A stretch of DNA of 64,000 nucleotides from Strobilurus pachycystidiatus. Taxonomy: Eukaryota; Basidiomycota; Agaricomycetes; Agaricales; Physalacriaceae. Positions 12,827-55,944 of the stretch are shown piece after piece. Below the pieces are notes generated by a model. It ran no database searches and was not told where the DNA came from. It saw only the letters and a list, made by a program, of their open reading frames with translations. Each line of letters opens with the position of its first letter. Within the stretch, counting starts at the first letter, position 1. The translations under genes were made by a program, and so were the position numbers. The stretch spans positions 3,720,001 through 3,784,000 of the forward strand of contig JAHLMK010000001.1 in the NCBI GenBank assembly GCA_019915135.1, written 5' to 3'.

Positions 12827-15800
12827 ATGAGTAGTCTAGCATTTCTGGTGACGGAGCTCCAGGTATGTGTCCCAGTTCATCTACGACCACTTCGACAACT
12901 TACCCAGCTCTAGTCACTGGCTAGCGAGACGCGGCGGAAGCATCCAGACATCCGGGAGGTACATTGGAATATGGACATAAACCACGCCCTTGGCCTCATG
13001 AAACCTCTAGGCTGCAGAAAAGTCACTTGCAATACTCAGAGCATCGCCAGAACAAGCCAATGCAAGCCTGGCCTCTGGTGCGTTCATCTCATGACTTTGA
13101 AGTCGATTGACTCACTGTATCTGTAGATGGTCCTCAGTCAGAGGATCTTTTACGGCCCGTCTTCATGGGATGCGCAACGAAGAATGCCAAAGTCGTGGCT
13201 ATCTCACTGGGCTCTCTCCAACGCCTAATTGCTCTCAAAGCAGTCCCACAGTCTGCCGTGCAACACATAATAAGCACCATGAACGATGCGATGACTCAAG
13301 GTGTCGATATTCAGCTACGCATACTGCAAACCCTCGTGTCTCTCATTACCAACTTTCCCGCAATACACGGGGACCAACTAGGGGATGTACGTTGCTCTTC
13401 TGCGATCAATCCACACTTACCGATGCACTGTACACGTACAGGCTCTCCTGCTATGTTTCAAGCTTCAAGAATCCAAGATTGCAGTCGTTTCTTCGACAGC
13501 AGCAGCTACTCTTCGACAACTTGTCATGTTCGTGGTGGACAAAATGGTCGAGGAGGATAGGAAGGATGTCACACCAGAGGTGTCAGAGGTCAGACTCCCA
13601 GATGGAAGTACCAAGCTCCTTGGCCCTTCCGCGCGAGACGCCTTCTCTGTCTTCGAAGATCTCTGCTTACTGGCAAATTCCGAAAAGCCCAACTTCCTCA
13701 AGCTCGAGTTTCTTCACAAGACGTTCGCGCTCGAGCTTATCGAGAGTGTTCTTACCAACTATCACGACTCTTTCCGCGCTCACCTCGAACTCATTCAACT
13801 ACTCCAACATCACCTTTGCCCTCTCCTACTCAAGGCTCTCTCAGAGCGACCTATGTTTCCTCTCACCCTTCGCTGTACCCGCGTTGTGTTCCTTCTTCTC
13901 AAACAGTTCTCTTATGAGCTCGTCACCGAGGCGGAAGTGTTTCTCATGCTCCTCATCAAGATCATCGTAGACGAGGATCACCCCCAGTGGATGCGCGTTC
14001 TCGCAATGGAGATCATGCGCGGACTCTGCAGTGACGCCGAGTTGATGCGCAACGTTTGGGACCGATATGAAGCCTCCGGGAGCAAGGTCTTCACCGCATT
14101 AATTACCGCTCTGAACCGACTCGTCACAGAGAAGCCAGCACTGTTGGGCGTTGGGACGCAAATGATAGGTGTCAATGTTCCCGCCTCAGAGCCGGGAGTT
14201 CTGTCACCGTCGAGCTCGGGGTATAGTCTGGACATCAACGGAATGGCTGGAATGGTCGCAAACGCTGCTGTGGGTGTCGTCGGGATGATGGGAGGTGGAG
14301 CTGGCCTCAGTTTACAAGGTTCTGCCATGAAGCTTCAATGGTAAACACCATATCCCTTCAAAACACGATCGCTGAAGGTTGTTCTAGCATTGACCAGCTC
14401 GACAAAGCCGACTCTCCGCCAATTCCAGAGTCGTACATCTACCTTCTCGGCATCCAGTGCTTGGTATCACTATGTGAAGGACTTGCTTCTTTCACTGGTC
14501 CCCTGTACACGCAAACCGTCATACAACGCCCCCGAGCAGCCGGCGAAGCAGTAAACAGGGCGCCACCCGCCCTCAATGTGTCCAGCCTCCCTCCTGATGA
14601 ACCCACGACCCAACATCTTGTCATTGTCCAGAACATCATCTCGGGAGGGTGGCCCGCATTATTAGCCGCACTTTCCTTCGTCATATCTACCAATCTTTCT
14701 GACGAATTGTTTGTGGATGTGCTCGCTAGCTATCAAGCACTGATCAACGTCTCTGGCATGCTTGGTCTCAACACGCCACGCGACGCGTTCTTCACCAGTC
14801 TCGCCAAGTTTGCAGTGCCGACACGCGTCGTGAGCTGTTTGGACACATACCAGGACGTTCCCCAAACTCCGCGCTCCACTGTGGCGGAGAATTTTGGCTT
14901 GGCCGGACCGACCGGGCCTCCAGGACTCAGCGAGCGGAATTTGGCCTGCTTGAAAGTTCTCATTGGGAGCGCGATGTTTCTTTCGGGCAGTCTGGGCGAC
15001 AGCTGGTTCAATATCTTAGAAGTCCTTCAGAATGCCGAGTATGTCTTGACGAGCAAGACGACAGGTGTCGGTTCCCCAAAGAAGACTCGTGCCGTCTCTG
15101 GGACGCCACCTCAAGGTCGTCACCCGATGCTGATGGATCTGGACGTTGATACGCTGCAGAATGGGATGCAAAGATTGTTTGATGCATCCAAGAATTTGGA
15201 CGACGGTGCTTTCAAGTGTTTCGTCGATGCGCTGTGCAAGCTCAGTGCTGAAATGGTCGAGATGCAGTCCAACGCGAGTGTGGCTGTAGACAGTGATAGT
15301 CTGGACGATGGGCTGACTTCACCATCCGTTCACCATGGTAGGCGGCTCAGTGGCATACATATCCCCAAGACTTTCAACGCGGTTAGTCTATTGCTCCCCT
15401 AGAACGGCTCCCTTCCTGAACACCTTATAGCGCTCAGGCGATTTCGGAATAGGAAAGTTGGGCGGCATCGCCAAGCTGAACTTGCACCGAATGATATATC
15501 GCTCGCCGGACGTTGCATGGGATAGAACGACCAGTCATCTGCTCTCCGTCATCCGACTCCCATTCGCACCTCAAGGAATACGGATACAGGCTGCGCGAGT
15601 TCTAGACGATATCCTGGAGACCGTACCGCGTAATCTAGGCTCGACCGGCGACATCAAGGAAGACGTTCAGAAACGTGTTCTTGACGTTTTGAAACAGCAG
15701 GTCATGCCAGATGCCCTGGTTCCTTCGACCTATACAAGTGTCGAGTTGCGGAAGATGGGTCTGGAGACCCTTCACGAGATACTACAGAGTTCCGGCCACA

Positions 15801-18642
15801 CACTGGTCGTTGGCTGGGAAATGATCTTTGAGATGCTTGGAAGTGTGTGTAAGCCACTTCCTATAGGCAGGTCGCCGAGTGTGGATTCGGTTTCCGCGTT
15901 GAGCTCGACCTCTGCATCTGGGCGGGCCAAGCCACTTCTACTCGGTCTGGGAGCGCCATCCGAGAAGAGCTTTACCGCACTTATCAAGATTGCCTTCCAG
16001 TCGCTCACGCTCGTTTGCGACTCGGTCACGACGCTGTCGCCGGAACATCTTCGCCTGTGCATCAGCACGCTCGGTCATTTTGGACGACAAGCGGACACGA
16101 ACATCGCTCTGACAGCCGCGGCTAGTCTGCTATGGAGCGTTTCTGACGCAATTCAGGGCAAACGAAAGGACGCCGAGGAGGAACCGCGATACAGCGAATT
16201 GTGGATGTTCCTACTGCTTGAAGTGCTTGGTCTTTGCACTGACGGCCGGTCGGAAGTCAGAGATGGCGCTATCCAGACTCTGTTCCGAACAATGCAACTG
16301 TACGGCGGCACCTTGAGCCTGGAGACGTGGGACCAATGTATCTGGGAGGTTACATTCCCTCTGCTCGACCAACTCAAGGCGCAGGAAACGGACGATTGGG
16401 ACGAGAGTAAGAACCTAGCGCTCGGATCGATTGGCGGCATCTTCCATGACTTCATCGCCAGCAAGATCCTACACCTGGGAAAGTTCGAGGAAGTGTGGGA
16501 TGTGTTCGTGACCCATATGCAGGACACCGTCCTTCTGGACAATCGGACTATCAGCGCGCCGGCGCTGAGATGTTTGGAGAAGGCTCTGAAAGCCTCTGGC
16601 AATGCTCCGCCCGAGGTTAGTCAACGGCGGCGCAGTACCTACGAGCGGGCGTGGGTCTTCATCGATGGCATTGGGGAGGCGGTCTTGCAAAAGACTGAAG
16701 GTGGTTCATCAAAGCCATTTTCGCAGGAAAGCCTAGTCGCGCTCGTTGATGTCATTCAATGCACGCGTATAGCCAGCAGATCGTTCAGCGGTGAAGAATG
16801 GAATCTAGAAAGGATCACCAGGCTCATGGTCATCTTGAAAGGTCAATTGTTCTCTCTATTCAGCGCCGCTGGCGTGACTGATCTCGTCAAAACAAGGTAT
16901 CTTGACGTATCCCAACTCACCCGATTATCGGCCGGATATCGACGCCCTCCCCCCGGTTCAGGTAATCAGACACTGTTCTGTTCAGCGTAGTTCATCGGAG
17001 CTGATACAATGGCCTAGTCCGTGGTTATGGACTCAATCACTGGAATCGACTTATCTGTGCCGGGATCGCCCTCCCTCGTTATGAGAGATCTATCGGAATA
17101 CGCGACGCTTGCCTTTCTCGCTGCTTTTGATGTTCAACCGACTGGAGCGAGCAGCCAAATGCCTCTGAAGCGCATAACATACATCGCACTATCAAAAAAG
17201 ACGATGCCTATGCTAGTCGAGCTGTTCGTCAAGTACAAGGACAAAGTTGAGATATATGTCGATGGTACGCTAGAGTCGGTCTTATCGGTTCGTTTTTGGT
17301 TGCCAATCCTATCAATCGGTACTCATAAATCTACAGGCATATTCAATACCAGTGAAACTCAAGTATGATTGTCCGCCTGCCTCCAAGTTCGGCAAAGATC
17401 TGCCGCTATGGAAAACGGCGACAACTTGTTTCTTGCGCATTGTGAAGGAGCTTTCACATTCCATCAACTCGTTCTCACAAGGTGAGTGGCCCCCCTTCTC
17501 GCAAAGCCGATGATATTCACCTGAACACAGACGTCCCCGATGAACGTATTGAGGGCATTTGGCGACAGGTCATCGACGTTTTCCGTGGTGGTATACTAGC
17601 AGACTGGTAAGGGGTCATTCACCCTCGAGTATCTCATTGTTAACCTCGTTCAGTGCGCCGGCGGAGGAGTTTCCTTTGGATGTTCAAGAGGCCGAAGAAA
17701 ACTTTGACCTCGCCCTGATCTCATCTTTGGAGATAGACGTCGTTCCTCATTTTGGAGACCCGAGACTACCTGACGCACTCGTTGCTCAACTGGCCAAGAT
17801 ACTTCAGCGGGGGAGTCGATTATACGAAGCGGAGGGGCGAGGATTTTCGCAGAATGGAAGTCCTGGGTCTTCACCTCGCAACTCACAGGAATACATCAAG
17901 GTCGAAGGGTCCGTCGGACACGGCAGCACCGACTCTGGGCTGCTGCTTCCTCGCGAACGGTTCTCGTATTGGTGCTTCGACTTGTTGTTCTTGATATGTT
18001 CCAACACGACCAAAGGTTAGTATGCTTCCCCCGTGCTCTTATCATTGGCTCAACTTCGTAGACCAAGAGCAATCGAGGAAAAGACTGGCAGCGTTAAGCT
18101 TGCCGTCATTGTTACATCGCTGTAAAATGACAATGGAAGCGTACGTGGCGGACGAATCCTTACGTGGCAATCTTCCTTTCCCGAGGTTCGTCCTATATCT
18201 CCGGGAGTTGACATGTTCCAATCATCGTTCAGAGCGCGAGAGGATGAGCTGTTGTATGTTCTTCGCAAGCTACTCGAACTAAGGCTCTGGTACGGATCTT
18301 TGTGGGCGGCGCTGTCTGAGACACCCTCGGAATATTGCAATCAACTACCGAGTACCTTTTCACTTGTGGTTTCTTGCTGTGTTGCTCAACTTCCTTTCAG
18401 ACCTTGACACCACTTTGACACCATCTCTGCTTATTGCACACGCCGTGAAGCGATCTTCCATCGCTCATCTGTTTCACTTGTATAGTATTTTGTGCGAAAT
18501 TGCGTCTATTCCTAGAAAGACACCTTCTGTATGGATGGTAGGCGCCCAGTCCGAGGTAGAGGACGCTGCTGTTTACCTCGATGCGAGAGATTTGAGTCGA
18601 AAGTGTCTGAAGGAGGTTGGGCGAGAGATGGGTGTGGACTAG
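12827..18642 (+). CDS. MON2: Mon2-family endosome/Golgi trafficking scaffold
   Basis: Large HEAT-repeat-like protein related to Sec7 Arf exchange factors but without the Sec7 domain. In yeast Mon2 works with Dop1 and Neo1 at the trans-Golgi and endosomes. Fifteen exons: 12827-12862, 12914-12958, 13011-13077, 13127-13386, 13442-14340, 14388-15381, 15431-16841, 16897-16961, 17018-17287, 17337-17481, 17531-17606, 17654-18015, 18062-18185, 18233-18351, 18401-18642. They sum to 1704 aa with every phase matching. Conserved stretches: DQLGDALLLCFKLQESK, CIDQLDKAD, GGIAKLNLHRM, YPNSPDYRPDIDALPPVQ and the C-terminal IASIPRKTPSVWM. The first two exons are only 36 and 45 nt. The length matches the family (about 1630-1720 aa). 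Confidence 0.93.
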
Positions 18643-18849: not shown

Positions 18850-20129
18850 TCAGCGCCATCCATCGGTCGCTTTTTTCTTTTTCTTTCGATTAGGCTTGCG
18901 CTGCGCTCCGCCCCCGGCGAAAAGTCGGCCTTTCCTACAGTCGTTACAGTACCACTTCACTGTCGTCGGTGCCTCCGTCAAGCCCACGCATCCAATATGA
19001 AACTTCGAGCATCAAGAAGCTGTCTTGCATAGAGAACGAGGGCGCTCACCCATTCAATCTTGCAGGCCATATTATCGCATGCGATCATCTTTCATAACAT
19101 CAGCAAGATGCTTCGGCGAAGGTCAATTTCAAGACACACCTCTCCGTAGGAGACTTGCTGGCAAGTGCAATATCTGGGCTCGTCCGGATGGGCTGGCTGT
19201 GCAACGTAGACGTTAACCTTGGGTTTTGGAAGCTCTTCTGTGTTATCCTCTGGAGGTAAAAGAGCCGGCGCTTTGGACCCGTGAGTCTGAACGGGAACTC
19301 TGATCTTCAAGGCAGAACCGCTTGCAGCTGCGTCGAGAACAGGTTCCGGTTCGACGTCGCTAATTGGGCTGATTGCTGTATGTGCCGGACGACTCCACTT
19401 CTCAGGCATTGAGATCGGAGGTAGTATTGTACCAACGATGGATTCGGACTGAATAACATTCTCTTGTTCGGCTATGACATGATCAAGCAAGCGAATTTGG
19501 CGTTCTATCTGGAGGAGTATTGAATACGGTGGGCAGAACGAACACGAACCCATACCGTTTCTTGCATGGTTTGAGCGAGGTTTATTTTTTCTTCACTTGC
19601 GCGAACCCGGTCTTCCATAAGAGAGCCTATTTTCGGCAAAAGAGTACGAGAGTTGATAGGAAGTTCGGTGGGAGGAGGATTGGGGTCAGACTGTGTGGCA
19701 TCAGGAATATCGGACGTGTCCTTGAGTTTTCTGCGACGGATGAGATAGTAGTTCCGCATCGCTTCCTGTAGTCTTTCTGAGCATTCTGCAAACGACACTT
19801 AGGAGTCAGTCCTGTCATGAGTGAGGACGACAGACCTCGCTCGTAATCATCGACCTCCTTCATGAGTGACATTTTTCGATGGCTTGTGTGGGATAGTTGA
19901 TCCAAGGCTGAGAATTGGGTATACTGCGAGGACATGGACGCGTCGAATGCTCACTTTCCGTATGCTCCTCACGCACGGTCTGGCGAATCAAATCCTCATC
20001 CAGACTGGCCGTGTCGTCATCGTCATCACTTGCGGTGTCCAGTTCTGGGTTGTCGTTCTCCATGGTTTGTTCTTCGGCGCCAGGAAAGGCAGAAGAATGA
20101 GGTCGTTTGCGAGAGCGAGCGGAGGACAT
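18850..20129 (-). CDS. ING-family PHD-finger protein
   Basis: Inhibitor-of-growth family protein, a subunit of histone acetyltransferase or deacetylase complexes that reads H3K4me3 (yeast Yng1, Yng2, Pho23). Model: 19977-20129, 19836-19923, 19556-19785, 19140-19508, 19050-19088, 18850-19002 (343 aa), introns 47-53 nt. An acidic N-terminus precedes the ING helical domain (YTQFSALDQLSHTS, MKEVDDYERE). A variable linker follows, then a complete C4HC3 PHD finger (CTCQQVSYGEMIACDN, EWFHIGCVGL, WYCNDC), including the Trp after the central Cys pair used for H3K4me3 binding. The tail is polybasic (KPNRKKKKKATDGWR), like the phosphoinositide-binding region of ING1/2. Which paralogue it is cannot be decided. 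It is divergent from the next gene with 130 bp between starts. Confidence 0.92.
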
Positions 20130-20259
20130 GATCGTAAGAGTGAGAGCAGCAGCTTTCTTAGGGTTAGGGCTACAGCTTCTGATGATGGCTGACGAATCAC
20201 GATGCCATCATGATCTGCTGCTGTATCAATGCATCATATACCCTCTGCAGCCAACCGCT
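20130..20259. promoter_or_regulatory. 130-bp divergent promoter with telomere-like box
   Basis: The gap between the ING start (20129) and the pseudokinase start (20260). It holds TTAGGGTTAGGG at 20158-20169, two units of the fungal telomere repeat and a known binding site type for Tbf1/Reb1-like factors in yeasts. A role here is inference. Confidence 0.5.
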
Positions 20260-22542
20260 ATGGTTGCTGGCAAGACCGGCAAGACTTCCATGGCCCTTGG
20301 CGCCCTAGAGTTTGCTGGGAATGCTAGCGGTGTACCCTTCGCTGGAACAGCGGCTACTCTAGTCAAGGAAATTGCTGAGTTTGCTGAAAGCGTGCGAGTG
20401 TCCAAGGTACACTCGGTGCATCTTGCGTTGAAATTGTACTAAATAAGGGTCAGGGAAAGGCCAAAAACATTGCAAACTCTTGTACTGTGCTTCTCAATAC
20501 GTTGGAGGACTTATCCGGGAAAGCTGTTGGAACTGAGCTCCAGGCTTCTGCGGATGAAATCACGCTGTATGGACAGTCCGACGACGTTGAAATTCCGGTT
20601 AACGGATGCTTAATAGTGATCTTGAAATCGTCCGAAACCGTACCAGGACTTATGCTCAGTATGGCCGCCTCAAGAGCTATCGTCAGTTCAGTCTGTATTC
20701 ACGATGGACTCCTTCTCTGATCGAGACGGTTTCAGTCAACGCGAAAGAGATTTCTCGTGGTATTGATCAATGTGAACATAACATGGACTTGGTTATCAAG
20801 AAGTTCAACGTGCGTCTACACATCACCCGGCTAGTATCTTCGTCGTCTAACCCAGCCTCCAGATGGGGTATGGTGCACGTTCTCTCTGTCACGTCTAGCT
20901 CACTAATTGTCACCTGTCGAATGAAAGCCACCAGTTCGTCGTCTATGAACAGCAACACCAGACGCATGAATTAATACAACGCAATCACGCCGAAATGACA
21001 GATCTTCTCCTCCAAGTTTTGGGGGATCGGGCCGAAATGGCTCATGTTGTGGCGCTGCAAAACTCTGGAGAACAGGTTGCCGAGCTGCTAATGAGGGATG
21101 GGCAGGAGGTTTGTCTTCATGCGCTAACTACTTTTGATATCTACTGACTATAACCCATCTTGGGACCATAGGAGCTCAGGAACCTCCGCGAAGCCCCACC
21201 CACCGATGAACCTTTAGATCAACGCCAGGCGCGGTATCATCAGTATGAAGCTGGTGTCATGGGTCTTCATCTCTGGACAGGCATACCACCGACTGTAAAG
21301 GTTTTAGATGGCGAAATAACGAAGATCGGAGACATCCCGTTCGCAGGGGGCCCATACAGTGACATTTGGGAAGGGAAGTGGCTCCATGATGAGAAGGTAA
21401 CGTTCTCTTTCCCAGTTTGATTGCTTGCAAAGCAACTGACACTGCCAGGTTGCACTCAAGTGTTTACGAAACGTCAAAACCAGCGATCCGAAAGGCAAGA
21501 AGGTCAAACAGAATTTAGCACTGACGTTGAAGAGGAAGATATCTCATTCGTATCTAGAGATTCCAGCGTGAAATTACAGTGTGGGACACCTTGAAGCACG
21601 AACATATCCTACCGTTCTATGGCATCTGTTACGAATTGGGATACAGTATATATATGGTGCATCTCCTCTTTGCAGAGAAATCTCCCTATTCAGACTCTTT
21701 GCAGGTTTCCCCATGGCAAGAGCACGGAGACGTCCTTGGGTAGCTGTCTGCTTCCTATCCTCAAGAATAATCAAGCTGATCTACGATACATAGCTATGTC
21801 AAGTCCAATCCAAGCGCGGATAAGATACACCTCGTAGTCGTTACCATGCTGACGTTTCCTCACGCTCATTGTCATTTAGGTACTTGGCGCTGCCAAAGGG
21901 ATGGAATATCTGCACTCAAAAGGCGTCATCCATGGCAATGGTAAGTAGTGTCAGTCAACTACATCTTGGTGCTGACCTGTTCTTCTCAGTCAAATGTGTA
22001 TGTTTTCTAAGTACCATCCTAAAGCACTGGGCTTGACTTGACCATTCAGACAAACATCGTGGTCATGGCAAACGTAAGTATTAATCCACCTCATCGTGCA
22101 CACGGTATACTAATCGCACTTCACACCACAGGGCGAAGCATGCATGTGTGACTTTGGCGTCGCCAAAGTGATAGAAGACGTGACAGAAGTCTCGGTATCC
22201 GCCACACAGACCAACTCAGGCGGCGCTCGATGGCTCGCTCCCGAGCTCATGGATTCAACGTTGGCGCAGATGTCCCCGACCACGCAGACGGACGTGTACT
22301 CCTTCGGCATGGCGATTCTGGAGTTACTGACTGAAAAGCCACCGTGGTGCGACGTGAAACGCGAAGCTACCGTGATCTTGAATGTGGTCAGTGAGCACAA
22401 GACGCCTAACAGACCAGATGTGTGTTCGTCGGATGAGCTGTGGGAGGTTATGCAGAAGTGCTGGAGGATGGACAGCAGAGAACGACCGGCGATGGGGCAA
22501 GTGAGGGAGGACATAGAACATCTCCATGAAGGGGTGAGTTAG
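20260..22542 (+). CDS. MLKL-like protein: N-terminal helical bundle plus TKL pseudokinase
   Basis: Thirteen exons (530 aa): 20260-20406, 20454-20575, 20617-20809, 20935-21108, 21172-21396, 21449-21502, 21558-21656, 21705-21739, 21794-21833, 21880-21940, 21990-21997, 22050-22073, 22132-22542. All phases agree. Residues 1-160 are helical, with a Gly/Ala-rich start (LGALEFAGNASGVPFAG) that resembles the MLKL/HeLo-like four-helix bundle found at the N-terminus of Agaricomycete NLRs. A charged helical linker (about 160-230) follows, then a TKL-type kinase fold. It has VALKCLR with the ATP-binding Lys, the catalytic loop HGNVKCTNI, DFG, APE and the kinase C-lobe. The HRD aspartate is Asn, so phosphotransfer is probably lost while ATP binding may remain. 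MLKL and its plant and fungal relatives kill cells by membrane insertion of such a bundle; that role here is inference. The exon 3-4 join is the least certain (125-nt intron). Confidence 0.78.
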
Positions 22543-46800: not shown

Positions 46801-49757
46801 ACTTCCCCGAAACTGAAGGATCTGGAGCGCGAGAAGTCCAGGACGGAGAAGGAGCAGAAGAAGAAGGATGACAAGGATCGGAGTGAGAGCAGGATATCTG
46901 TGCTTATGGGCAGAAAGCGTGGCAAGGTGTGTGACGGTGCATTATCGACTGGCTGGTGGCTTATAGTGAGTATAGACTTTGTCCTCTACAGATCCCCGGA
47001 AGCCCAAATCGCCGGTCAACTTGCCTCCCCTCAACGTACCTGCCATCGAGCCCGCGACCGCGCAACGGGTTGCGCGCCTTAAAGGCGCGCCTGGGACGCC
47101 AACGCACTCTCCCTCGCGAGGCTCTTCGGCGTCGTCAAGGGTGACCTCCCAGACTGTCAGTTCTATGCAAAAGCAGTCGGACACGTCTCTTCGCAGTCGC
47201 AATCAGCTCCCAACCATAGCTGGCTCACCCTCTGTTGGCACAACGACTACGTCTGTCAAGGATACAAAGGATGGTCCACCGATCAGCCTCGCGAATTCAG
47301 GCTTGCCAAAGGAGACTCCAACGAAGATACCACGTATATCGAGTCGAACCTCAGCTGCTGGATCGCCGACGCTAAAAGGTAGCTCGACTCTGACCAACCG
47401 CCGGCAGAGTTCGACGGCCCAGGCGTCTTCCTCGAACAATCCATCGCCTGTGATGAACGAGTTTGGACTCATCGATAACGAGACGCCGAATGCCAAGACT
47501 GTCATTGGTTCTTCGCGTATCCGGGCATCTCCCTCCACGATAACGTCTTCGATATCTCGCGTTCCTCGCCAGGTGTCTGGGAATGCATCTTCGACGTCCA
47601 CCTCCGGAATTCTTCCACGGAAGAGTAATCGTGATTCCATCTCGTTCAGCGGATTACGCAAATCATCTACAGCGTCCGTCGCCTCATTCTCCACGGTCAA
47701 TGGAGGGACCGATACTGGCAATGTCACCGCCCCCTCTCACTCCCGCTTTGCTCTTTCCCCCTCGAGAGGACTCAAGCTTCTTAGCCCGAAATCGCTGACT
47801 TCGCGCGCCTCGAATAGCTCTAGTACCCACAACATCCACCAGACCATCGCTTCGGCCTCCTCGAGCCGACAGTCCTTGTCGACACCGTCGCCAGTTCCTA
47901 GCTCGATAGACGATGAGGAGATTGCAGGAGATGAGGAGATGATGAGTTATATTCGCCGGCAACATGCGAAGAAGCTCTCCAATGGTGCATCTCAAGAAGA
48001 GCTGGACGAGCTTTTGCGATTCCCCGAGCCAATACCACCTGCCAAAGCCCTAACACCCGATGGTCAGTAGTTTCGTTTGTTACTGGAACTCATATTGATC
48101 ATGGTACAGAGGTTCTCGCAAGCTCGCAAAGCCAATACCTCTCGGATTACGAACGCAAAGAAATCAAGGACTATCCAGCTGTATACTGCATCGGTGCTCG
48201 GAGCAAGAAGAAACTTGCTACACGCGACGTTACGACTAATAACTTTGGATACGATGACGACCGAGGGGACTACCAGGTCGTTATGCATGACCATTTGGCA
48301 TACCGGTACGAAGTCATCGAATCGGTCGGGAAAGGTTCGTTTGGGCAAGTCCTAAACTGCCGGGATCATCAAACGGGAGACTCTGTCGCGATCAAGATTA
48401 TCAGAAACAAGAAGCGGTTCCATCATCAGGCTCTTGTAGAGATCAAAATCCTTGACAATCTGCGTAAATGGGTAAGCAATGATCATCACCGAACCAGACA
48501 GAACGCTCATCTTCTTCGGTCTCAGGACGAGGAGGAGAAGCATCATGTCATCAAAATGACCGAGAATTTCTATTTCCGAGGCCACCTCTGCATCGCGATG
48601 GAGCTTCTGAGCATTAACCTTTACGAGCTCATCAAGGCGAACGGTTTCGTAGGATTTACGACTGCGCTGATACGGCGTTTCACAAGCCAGATGCTTTTGT
48701 CGCTGTCTTTGATGCGCCATCATCGTATCGTGCATTGCGACCTCAAGCCAGAGGTATAGCCCTGCCAACCGTTCTGGGACAATTCCTCATTTTCCATTAC
48801 AGAACGTGCTACTTCGACATCCTGCGAAGAGCGCCATCAAAGTTATTGACTTTGGAAGTAGCTGTCTGGAAAGCGAGAAGAGTGAGTGTTCTCTGGCCAT
48901 CTGTTTGACCGCCACTCAACGATATCAGTCTATACATACATCCAGAGTCGCTTTTATCGTTCACCGGAAGTGATATTAGGGATGAACTACCACATGGCCA
49001 TCGATATGTGGAGTTTAGGATGTATCCTTGCAGAGCTGTTCACCGGATTCCCCATCTTCCCCGGCGAAAACGAGCAGGAACAGCTCGCATGTATAATGGA
49101 GGTACTGGGCGTACCTGAGAGGGAGTTCATCAACAAGAGTTCGCGCAAGAAGCTCTTTTTCGGTAAGCGACATTCTATCTGCGAGAAGCTTGACTGACTG
49201 ACCGCTCAAACAGAATCCAACGGCTCTCCGAGAATCGTCACCAACTCGAAAGGACGAAAGAGAAGACCAGGATCCAAGTCTTTGGCTCAAGTCCTACGCA
49301 GTACCGATGACCAGTTCGTCGATTTCATTGCCAAGTGTCTTGTTTGGGACCCAGAGCGGCGTTTGAAACCAGCGGCTGCTCTACGACATCCTTTCGTAGT
49401 TGGGGCTAGCCCTCATCGACAGAAACTTGCCGCGACTCCCAAAAGCACCCTGTCGACGACGAGCTTGAGTTCGCGCCGCAAGGATCCCACGGAAACGCCC
49501 AAGAAATCCCTCATAAGTGCGCCCACGCCATTGACTGCTCGGACGTCCCGCACTACAGCAGCCCATGTACCAACTACGCCCAGCAATTCATCGCATGCTT
49601 CTACTCTTGGATCCACGTCAAGGTCTTTCAGGGCTTCGCAACCTCAAAGTCTGTCATCCTATCATTCCAACCGGACGCTCAATGGGTATGCTGTACGTTC
49701 CGCTCTCCTCTTTGATTTTCTTACTAACGACTGCCTCAGACCGCCACTGCCAAGTAA
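43802..49757 (+). CDS. Giant DYRK-family protein kinase (Pom1/DYRK2-like)
   Basis: Dual-specificity kinase of the DYRK family; fungal relatives (Pom1, Yak1) act in polarity, size control and stress. Exons: 43802-43960, 44022-44462, 44512-46926, 46976-48062, 48110-48471, 48526-48753, 48803-48881, 48929-49162, 49214-49692, 49740-49757 (1833 aa, phases consistent). Residues 1 to about 1,370 are Ser/Pro/Thr-rich and disordered. The DH box ([20 protein letters not shown]) immediately precedes the kinase domain at about 1431-1732. That domain has [20 protein letters not shown], the HRD-like HCDLKPEN, DFG, the activation loop [13 protein letters not shown] with the autophosphorylated tyrosine, and [13 protein letters not shown] short Ser/Thr-rich tail follows. 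The last exon join (GCT|gtacgt) is one of two possible; the alternative changes only the last few residues. Confidence 0.92.
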
Positions 49758-52836: not shown

Positions 52837-53572
52837 CGTCGACGTCGACATCAAGGAGAGGTTGCACAGCCACATGACCAAATTCGTTCTTAAGTGTGGC
52901 ACGCACCGACGGCGCAACGGCGTCACTGCTCCTCGTTGTATCCTTTGCTCTGAGCCACTTTGAAGCTCCTCAGGCCTCATCGCCTCAGCCCAAGGTCTCG
53001 GCCTCAGCCCTCATCATTGACATACTGCGCTCATCAGCCACTCCATCACCAGAAGGTGCCAAAGGATGAGGCTTGGGTTCTCTGCATTGCGACGGGCTAA
53101 CTTTGGGGCTATCTGGGATTGAATTCCATGGTAAGCGCTAAGCGCCAATGCCTCCACTTGGCAGAATTCGAGGTCAGTCTTCCCGTCCCAGTCTACACGT
53201 CCAAAGTACTAAGTCATGATCGGAAGTTAGACGCGTCCACGGCTGAAGCCGGAGCTTTCCCACGGCCGACTGGTCCAGAGCGTGATCCACGTTATTTGAC
53301 CAGTTCCGTCTTCTCTCTCTCTCGGCGGGTCGACGGCCGCCTCGCGGGCGCATTCTCCATCACTGTCTTTGCTTCGGTTTCCCCTCGATTATGCTGATCT
53401 TTCTATTTTCCTTATAGATCCACTCGTAAGTCATCTGGACTTACTCCGGAATGAGTGAAAAAGTCGTTTGATTCAATCCTACAGTTTTTGACGCGTCTAT
53501 CTACCGTTCTGCATAAGCGGCTCCAAGTCATTCACAAAAAATCTCACCAGGACGGGCGACGTGGGGTGATAC
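52837..53572. promoter_or_regulatory. 736-bp divergent spacer (phosphomutase / YTH)
   Basis: Between divergent start codons. It contains repeated CTCATC/CCTCAG tracts at about 52975-53025 but no supportable gene. Likely two promoters. Confidence 0.45.
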
Positions 53573-55944
53573 ATGTACGGCGATGGCGGCCACGAAGGGG
53601 CGTCTGAAAGAGCGCATCCCGACGAGCATCAATCCCAGCAAAGCTCCCAGCAAGCTGGCGCGCCTCCTGGCTTCCGAGAATTCCAGGGAAATACCTACGC
53701 GCAGCCGCGGCCGTCGGTTTTTGGTCCATTCGCAATGTCCAATCCAATGCCACCCCCGACGGGCCTGCATGCACCACCGTACGGTATGCCGCAGCCCCAT
53801 GGATCCCACGCCGTGTACCACCAGCCTATCATTCATCAGTCCACGCTTTACGCGTCTTCCGCCCCTTTTCCTCCGCACCGACTGGCATCAGCGGAAGCCG
53901 GCTCGCATACACTCCCGAATACGTCCATCTATTCGCCACAGGGTACTACAACTCCGCCTCTTTTATCTGGTCCTGCACAGTCTACTCATCCAGCAAATTA
54001 TCTCGATGCAGGCTCTTACCACCATGGCGTCCCTTACACTTTACCCATCTCCCCGCCAGGGTTTTCTTTCCCTCAGCAGTCGTATCCCACCAGCCCTCGA
54101 TATCCCGCGCCCCAGTTCAACCAAGGAATTAATTACCCGCAACATTTCGCGGAGACTGAGGGTCAAGGAACATGGTGGTATCTTCCTCCTTCACGTCAAT
54201 ACGACGGCAGCCCCGCCCGGTATCAGGGTCCGTTTGCGGTCGACTATTCTCATCGACAGCCTGAAAACAACCAGCCATCGACCTCATCCTCCACGCACTA
54301 CTCCACAGCACCCCAGGTCCAACTCCCACCTCGCCGGCCAACCCCATCATCTTCTGTCGCATTCAGCTCTGTATCACCGATTCCCGATGGTTCAGTCTCG
54401 AGAGACACGCCACCATCACGGGAAACACCGCCCGACATACCGCCAACCCGTCGCGCGTATCATCCGAATCCCCCTACTTCTCGGTCGGAATGGGTTATGT
54501 GGGTCGGCAACGTCCCTTCTGATGCGACACATGATGAGGTTTGGCATTTCTTCAGTATGCCTGTCCTGCAACAATCTACATCTGAAGCACAGAGGACCGG
54601 CGTTCTGTCCATCTTCCTCATTGCACGTTCCAGTTGTGCGTTTGTGAACTTTGATAGTGAGGCCGATCTTCATCGGGCGATCGCTATGTTCAACGGTGTA
54701 CCGCTGCGACCTAAGGATCCGCGATGTCCCATGCTGGTCTGTAGGGTCAGGCGAAAGGATGATGATCTCAAAGCAGGCGTAGGCGGCCAACGGGGTACGG
54801 GTATACACACTCGATGGGTGAAGCAACAGAAGGCCAAAGCTCGCGAGGTTGATGAAGTTGGTGATGACCCCCCGGCCATGTCGCCACTGGTGTCAGATAC
54901 TGAGAGCTTCGTGGAACTCAAGGATCACGACGATCTGTTGCGCCCAGATTCAGCAAGGTCGGAGTCGTTCTCATCGACCGATTCGAGTATGCTAGGAAAA
55001 TATTTCCCGAAACGATACTTCATTCTCAAGTCGCTTACACAAGTGTGTCACTCTCGATATGACGACACGCCCAATCTCATTCTTTTTCACCAGGAAGACT
55101 TGAATCGGAGTGTCGAGACGGGGACCTGGACTACTCAGCGTCATAATGAGGGCATTCTTGATCAAGCTTACCGCAGTAGCAAGGATGGAGTGTTTCTGAT
55201 TTTTGGTGTCAATAAGAGCGGCGAGTTCTTTGGATACGCCAGGTGAGTCAATAATGTCGTAGTGGCGCTGATGATTCATTGACGATTTCTAGGATGGCAA
55301 GCTCCATCAGGACTGAGCCATTGCACCCATCAGAGTCTTTACCACCAGAACCTGGAGACAGTGCGGACGCCGCATACATACCCGACCGTCCCCTGGAGGA
55401 GTCGCCGATGCCCCTGCAGACACCCGAGCAGATGCGCACGGCAGTAACCGAGGGTGCTGTACTTTACAATCCCAAGTTGAGTTCAGCGCCACCCATATTG
55501 GGTCCACCTCCCCACTATATGACGCCAATCGCCCAAGTCCAATTGAGACATACTGTCGATACACGCTACTACAAACCGGAGCGTCCTGGGCTGAAGTCCC
55601 AGCAGCCCACGCTTGATTCCTTCCACTCTGCCGATGATCCATCATTCAACCTGGACAAGGACGCGCCGTTGCGAGCCGTCCGACACCCCCAGGAGGATGA
55701 CAGCGAGCTTGGGACCTCATTTCGAGTGGAATGGTTATGCACTGAGCGGCTTCCGTTCTATATGACACGACATCTCCGAAACGAATGGAACAAGGACCGG
55801 GAGGTGAAGGTGTCTCGTGATGGGACTGAGGTGGAACCGACTGTAGGGGAGCGTTTGTTGAGTGAGTGGCGCACTCTCGCTGCGGAAGCCGTTGGGAAAT
55901 CTCAAGGGAAAAAACGAACAAAGACGGGTCCCGATAAACGATGA
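53573..55944 (+). CDS. RRM-YTH RNA-binding protein (m6A-reader type)
   Basis: Predicted reader of N6-methyladenosine in RNA. Exons 53573-55042, 55094-55242 and 55293-55944 (756 aa). The first intron (51 nt) reads through in frame; splicing restores RYFILKSLTQEDLNRS, the YTH start. The N-terminal ~300 residues are Pro/Gln/Tyr/Ser-rich and low complexity. An RRM (about 305-395) has WVMWVGNVP (RNP2 position) and SSCAFVNFDSEADL (RNP1 position). The YTH domain begins near residue 478 with GTWTTQRHN (first cage Trp) and FLIFGVNKSGEFFGYARM. About 130 residues of disordered sequence interrupt it before FRVEWLCTERLPFYMTRHLRN (second cage Trp). It ends basic. RRM-YTH fusions are known in filamentous fungi. 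The target RNAs are unknown. Confidence 0.9.

Follow-up and report, generated by a model that had tools for sequence, protein, structure and literature searches.

An MLKL-type domain order, with a putative pseudokinase, in a conserved Agaricomycete protein family represented in Strobilurus pachycystidiatus

Both animals and plants have MLKL-like proteins, and in fungi HeLo proteins are established as killers. Mammalian MLKL consists of a four-helix bundle, a helical brace, and a pseudokinase that has itself lost the DFG motif. Plant MLKLs, including wheat Pm13, carry an MLKL_NTD/HeLo bundle and a kinase domain in one protein (PMC10951266). In basidiomycetes, BaMLKL domains have been described on NLRs, along with hundreds of putative single pore-forming domains (PMC9815663), and one figure-legend sentence of a 2025 review mentions fungal HELL domains fused to a kinase or pseudokinase (PMC12881547). 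Here we describe a gene of Strobilurus pachycystidiatus (20260..22542, + strand) within a 64,000-nucleotide stretch of contig JAHLMK010000001.1 (positions 3,720,001 to 3,784,000), which as a whole is called the window. We tentatively read its product, at slightly less than an even chance, as a protein conserved in Agaricomycetes and built in the manner of MLKL, in which an extra helix, a bundle, brace-like helices, and a TKL-type pseudokinase would act as a latch.

A search with the full-length protein (528-residue model, see below) gave 499 proteins with E ≤ 0.001 among 7988 scored candidates, of which 120 were listed. Of these 120, 43 align over 95% or more of the query, with identities of 30–54%. 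Apart from four without a name, these 43 are Agaricomycetes (39 proteins) and include members from Hymenopellis, Galerina, Pleurotus, Coprinopsis, Schizophyllum, Serpula, and Neolentinus. The Hymenopellis relative is 54% identical over 99% of the query, and it pairs with the window gene in a 43-row tree of the kinase domain (support 100/100). Because so many of the listed relatives span the joined protein, bundle and kinase are one old gene. The order of bundle then pseudokinase given in the original prediction is supported.

The N-terminal region was assessed with a profile built from the N-termini of 24 relatives, with the window protein left out. In PDB, the top seven matches of this profile were all MLKL structures, with E from 3.7e-7 to 4.3e-4, and the eighth match had an E of 0.053. 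The window protein scored 188 bits on the family profile (509-residue model; 188–196 bits over four junction alternatives). Since this profile itself finds MLKL, the window N-terminus belongs to an MLKL_N-type family, and its assignment as a four-helix bundle, originally made by eye, holds at the family level. No other result backs that assignment as strongly as these profile scores. Pfam MLKL_N was matched by 34 of the 43 near-full-length relatives at E ≤ 1 (best, 9.4e-8). When five relatives were re-scored, P0041 reached 32.1 bits, above the curated cut-off of 27, and the other four 24.4–25.9. A precomputed MLKL_N entry is present in 10 of the 120 listed relatives, one of them from an oomycete. 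This protein (P0076, Nothophytophthora) is a kinase with MLKL_N and PF00514 (Armadillo) entries and represents another MLKL_N-plus-kinase arrangement outside fungi.

The bundle could alternatively serve self-association or docking in a signalling scaffold, in the way that the related N-terminal bundle of Cbl docks partners, with the pseudokinase allosterically controlling another kinase and no killing involved. We consider such a scaffold rather unlikely, as the same N-terminal profile that finds MLKL in PDB finds no Cbl at E ≤ 10.

In the MLKL-type reading, the N-terminal half falls into three parts. A Gly/Ala-rich extension with an extra helix (20260..20331, +; approximate, by alignment to relative P0009) precedes the bundle, which is encoded by exons 1–4 (20332..20809, +; approximate limits from profile matches and the P0009 model). 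Exon 5 (20935..21108, +) continues the last bundle helix and adds brace-like helices, corresponding to helices 107–163, 165–176, and 181–206 of the P0009 model. In that model these helices come after the bundle and before the kinase, and 4btf, a mouse-type full-length MLKL, aligns over profile positions 25–170. The P0009 model also has a short helix (100–105) that may correspond to the hM of BaMLKL between h3 and h4.

The linker and TKL-type kinase domain are encoded by exons 6–14 (21172..22542, +). As predicted, the domain is of TKL type, matching PF07714 over residues 250–500 with E 2.2e-45 (509-residue model). Active-site columns were counted in the first 59 of the listed relatives. The loss of the catalytic Asp proposed for the window protein was confirmed: HGN stands in place of HRD (21931..21939, +), and the same column has Asn in 53 relatives, Asp in three (P0004, P0035, and P0058, the last with two kinase domains), a gap in two, and Gly in one. 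P0063, outside the first 59 and covering 95%, has His in this column. The other catalytic columns are largely kept, namely the ATP-site Lys in 53 of the 59, the alpha-C Glu in 55, the second Asn in 56, and the DFG Asp in 57. In the window protein, the ATP-site Lys of VALK (21458..21460, +), the Glu, and DFG are all present. With D, F, and G each found in 57 of the 59 relatives, the degenerate DFG of MLKL is not matched. The segment from DFG to APE (22150..22245, +; from the sequence and the family alignment) is rich in conserved Ser/Thr, and four of the five conserved Thr/Ser columns are kept in the window protein. These features suggest that the kinase half is a pseudokinase by one lesion and could still bind ATP.

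A working or weakly working kinase that tolerates Asn for Asp and carries an MLKL_N-type membrane or sensor domain appears improbable. The retention of the remaining active-site residues, the strong conservation of the kinase half, and the Asp of the sister members P0004 and P0035 would fit it, but Asn occupies the column in nearly all of the relatives counted, and kinases that lose the catalytic Asp transfer phosphate far less well. In P0004 and P0035, members from Moniliophthora and Paramarasmius, HGD stands where the family has Asn; P0035 is a short protein lacking the Lys column. In the 43-row tree the two group as a single pair with support 100/99, surrounded by rows that bear Asn. Parsimony gave three state changes at the Asp/Asn column, on a midpoint-rooted tree with many open forks and in which long branches meet, a result that is compatible with a regained Asp in P0004/P0035. 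The natural Asn and Asp forms of the family would make the role of the lost catalysis directly testable.

Some observations run against the fold assignment. The window protein alone has no Pfam MLKL_N match (528-residue model; 509-residue model at E ≤ 5), and its N-terminus in the 528-residue model retrieved no MLKL from PDB at E ≤ 10, only one chance match. The MLKL_N match to be expected from the by-eye fold was reached by the family and not by the window protein alone. Other observations weigh against an MLKL-type latch. Hydrophobicity of the window N-terminus is weak (0.91; 1.6 is reached by 20 of the 43 relatives), and conservation is higher in the kinase (0.60) than in the bundle (0.36). 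The extra helix in front of bundle helix 1, modelled in P0009 at residues 4–15 with low confidence (predicted local distance difference test score 36–39), is a further difference; a helix in this position was described for Goodbye-like domains as requiring experiments before death activity is ascribed (PMC9815663). The missing MLKL_N match of the window protein, together with exon joins that rest on homology, would fit an artefact, in which the exons of the bundle and those of the kinase come from separate transcripts, or chance accounts for the resemblance in fold. This is very improbable, given the near-full-length coverage of the joined protein in 43 of the 120 listed relatives and the E-values with which the N-terminal profile finds MLKL in PDB.

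In PDB, the kinase half had 1990 matches, with an EGFR-labelled chain, JAK/TYK2, MLT/ZAK, RAF, and MET scoring best and MLKL outside the best 60; with the full-length family profile MLKL was likewise outside the best 60 of 1929 matches. Structure comparison of the full-length model returned only kinases among the matches listed and is uninformative on the bundle. A kinase half that is RAF/TK-like and not visibly closest to MLKL hints that the fusion was likely assembled separately from animal MLKL.

MLKL may have a fungal counterpart in this protein. It shares with mammalian MLKL the order of bundle, brace-like helices, and pseudokinase, a bundle homologous by profile, and the ATP-site Lys, but differs in having an intact DFG with only the catalytic Asp gone and, at the low confidence of the P0009 model, in the extra helix of the fungal family. 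The term direct counterpart, used in the original prediction, is therefore only partly supported. Domain order, bundle kinship, and Asp loss agree with it, the PDB matches of the kinase half, the putative extra helix, and the intact DFG limit it, and killing by the fungal protein is a supposition. Plant MLKLs have the same two parts in one protein (PMC10951266) but belong to a different kingdom, and are likened here by published description. BaMLKL domains, also likened by description, have a four-helix core, an extra N-terminal helix, and a short h3–h4 helix, to which the helices of the P0009 model may correspond; those described occur on NLRs or alone, whereas the partner here is a pseudokinase (PMC9815663). 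The HELL fusion of the 2025 review is the same architecture in words, in a sentence that gives no family, species, or sequence, so it may or may not refer to the present family (PMC12881547).

The gene structure by homology, the domain order, the kinship of the bundle with MLKL, the Asp loss, and the conservation of the other active-site residues were computed; release, oligomerisation, membrane action, death, and an upstream kinase are all steps that we infer. Latch and release fits this anatomy best and is the likeliest of the readings. At rest, the bundle would be held by the pseudokinase and brace. It would be released, and would oligomerise, once a nucleotide or partner binds or another kinase phosphorylates the activation segment with its conserved Ser/Thr residues. 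The freed bundle would then reach and permeabilise the plasma membrane, killing the cell or compartment. A fuller claim is possible but doubtful: that this is a conserved Agaricomycete necroptosis-type executioner, in which a BaMLKL-like bundle and a fungal TKL kinase were joined separately from animal MLKL, the kinase became a pseudokinase by one early Asp-to-Asn change, and Asp was regained in the Moniliophthora/Paramarasmius lineage. If true, necroptosis logic could be tested in genetically tractable mushrooms, starting from a family with bundle and pseudokinase on one chain.

Many of the relatives are named 'TKL/TKL-ccin protein kinase'. The label covers the kinase only, although it is borne by members of the present family, so an MLKL_N-type domain and an active site that is probably dead are present in proteins filed simply as such kinases. 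In a Lentinula protein of this name, residue 818 is a phosphosite (PMC7751435), which implies that longer, different proteins are named in the same way. The TKL/TKL-ccin gene CC1G_05652, likened here by name, is tabled with Schizophyllum and Laccaria counterparts in conserved fruiting circuitry (PMC4082614). The passages considered from PMC10197012 and PMC7889193 mention no bundle-kinase fusion. In the open-access literature, with subscription journals and preprints outside its scope, our search found neither a description of the present family nor a fungal TKL kinome paper.

The gene limits of the original prediction, an ATG at 20260 and a stop ending at 22542 on the + strand, were retained. 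Exon structure was inferred from comparison with relatives, which suggests about 14 exons and about 509–517 residues, with introns of 46–125 bases that are all GT-AG. The exons of the 509-residue model are 20260–20406, 20454–20566, 20617–20681, 20736–20809, 20935–21108, 21172–21396, 21449–21502, 21558–21656, 21705–21739, 21794–21833, 21880–21940, 21990–21997, 22050–22073, and 22132–22542 (all +). An earlier 528-residue, 13-exon model from consensus splice sites, the query in several searches, left unspliced the in-frame 54-base intron 20682–20735, an 18-residue insertion relative to the family, and placed one donor one codon too far; mending both gave 14 exons and 509 residues. At the junction 20810–20934, four alternatives (509, 511, 513, and 517 residues) score within 8 bits of one another on two family profiles, the 509-residue version lowest on both, so a few residues of the long helix are unsettled.

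With the intron-retaining 528-residue model, the window N-terminus alone found no relative, which is no sign of novelty because the query held the intron error and relatives exist; in its own genome, the N-terminal query from this model matched this locus only. The N-terminal region of P0009 found 11 proteins including P0009 itself. Ten have a kinase domain in Pfam, and the remaining one, P0067, is without a Pfam entry; no other architecture emerged from this search, whose reach was limited to proteins of similar length sharing short words. A short catalytic-loop pattern was applied to 27 loci of the genome, some of which belong to one gene; it matched 11 times, each time with Asp as the last residue and never with Asn. 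This pattern is blind to loops split by introns, and a longer one mostly failed on the other kinases of this genome. Because introns split the catalytic loop, frame-based searches miss it. An 8-base microexon (21990–21997, +) lies directly 3' of the HGN exon.

Across the whole genome, Pfam MLKL_N had two weak matches elsewhere and none at this locus. The two are adjacent (L043 and L044, contig C7, about 456.9 and 458.9 kb; E 0.012 and 0.11) and may be small genes of BaMLKL type arranged in tandem; by eye, the L043 frames resemble a BaMLKL-type helical protein. Within the window, divergently oriented open frames lie just upstream of the gene (19092–20207, −). One ends in a PHD-finger-like sequence by eye, and pieces of these frames had no Pfam match. 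A second protein-kinase gene is located at 48307–49398 (+), its N-terminal part matching PF00069 with E 8.2e-18. Frames at 53570–55246 (+) and 15431–16990 (+) match the YTH/RRM_YTH1 and Mon2 C-terminal domains, respectively, and are ordinary neighbours.
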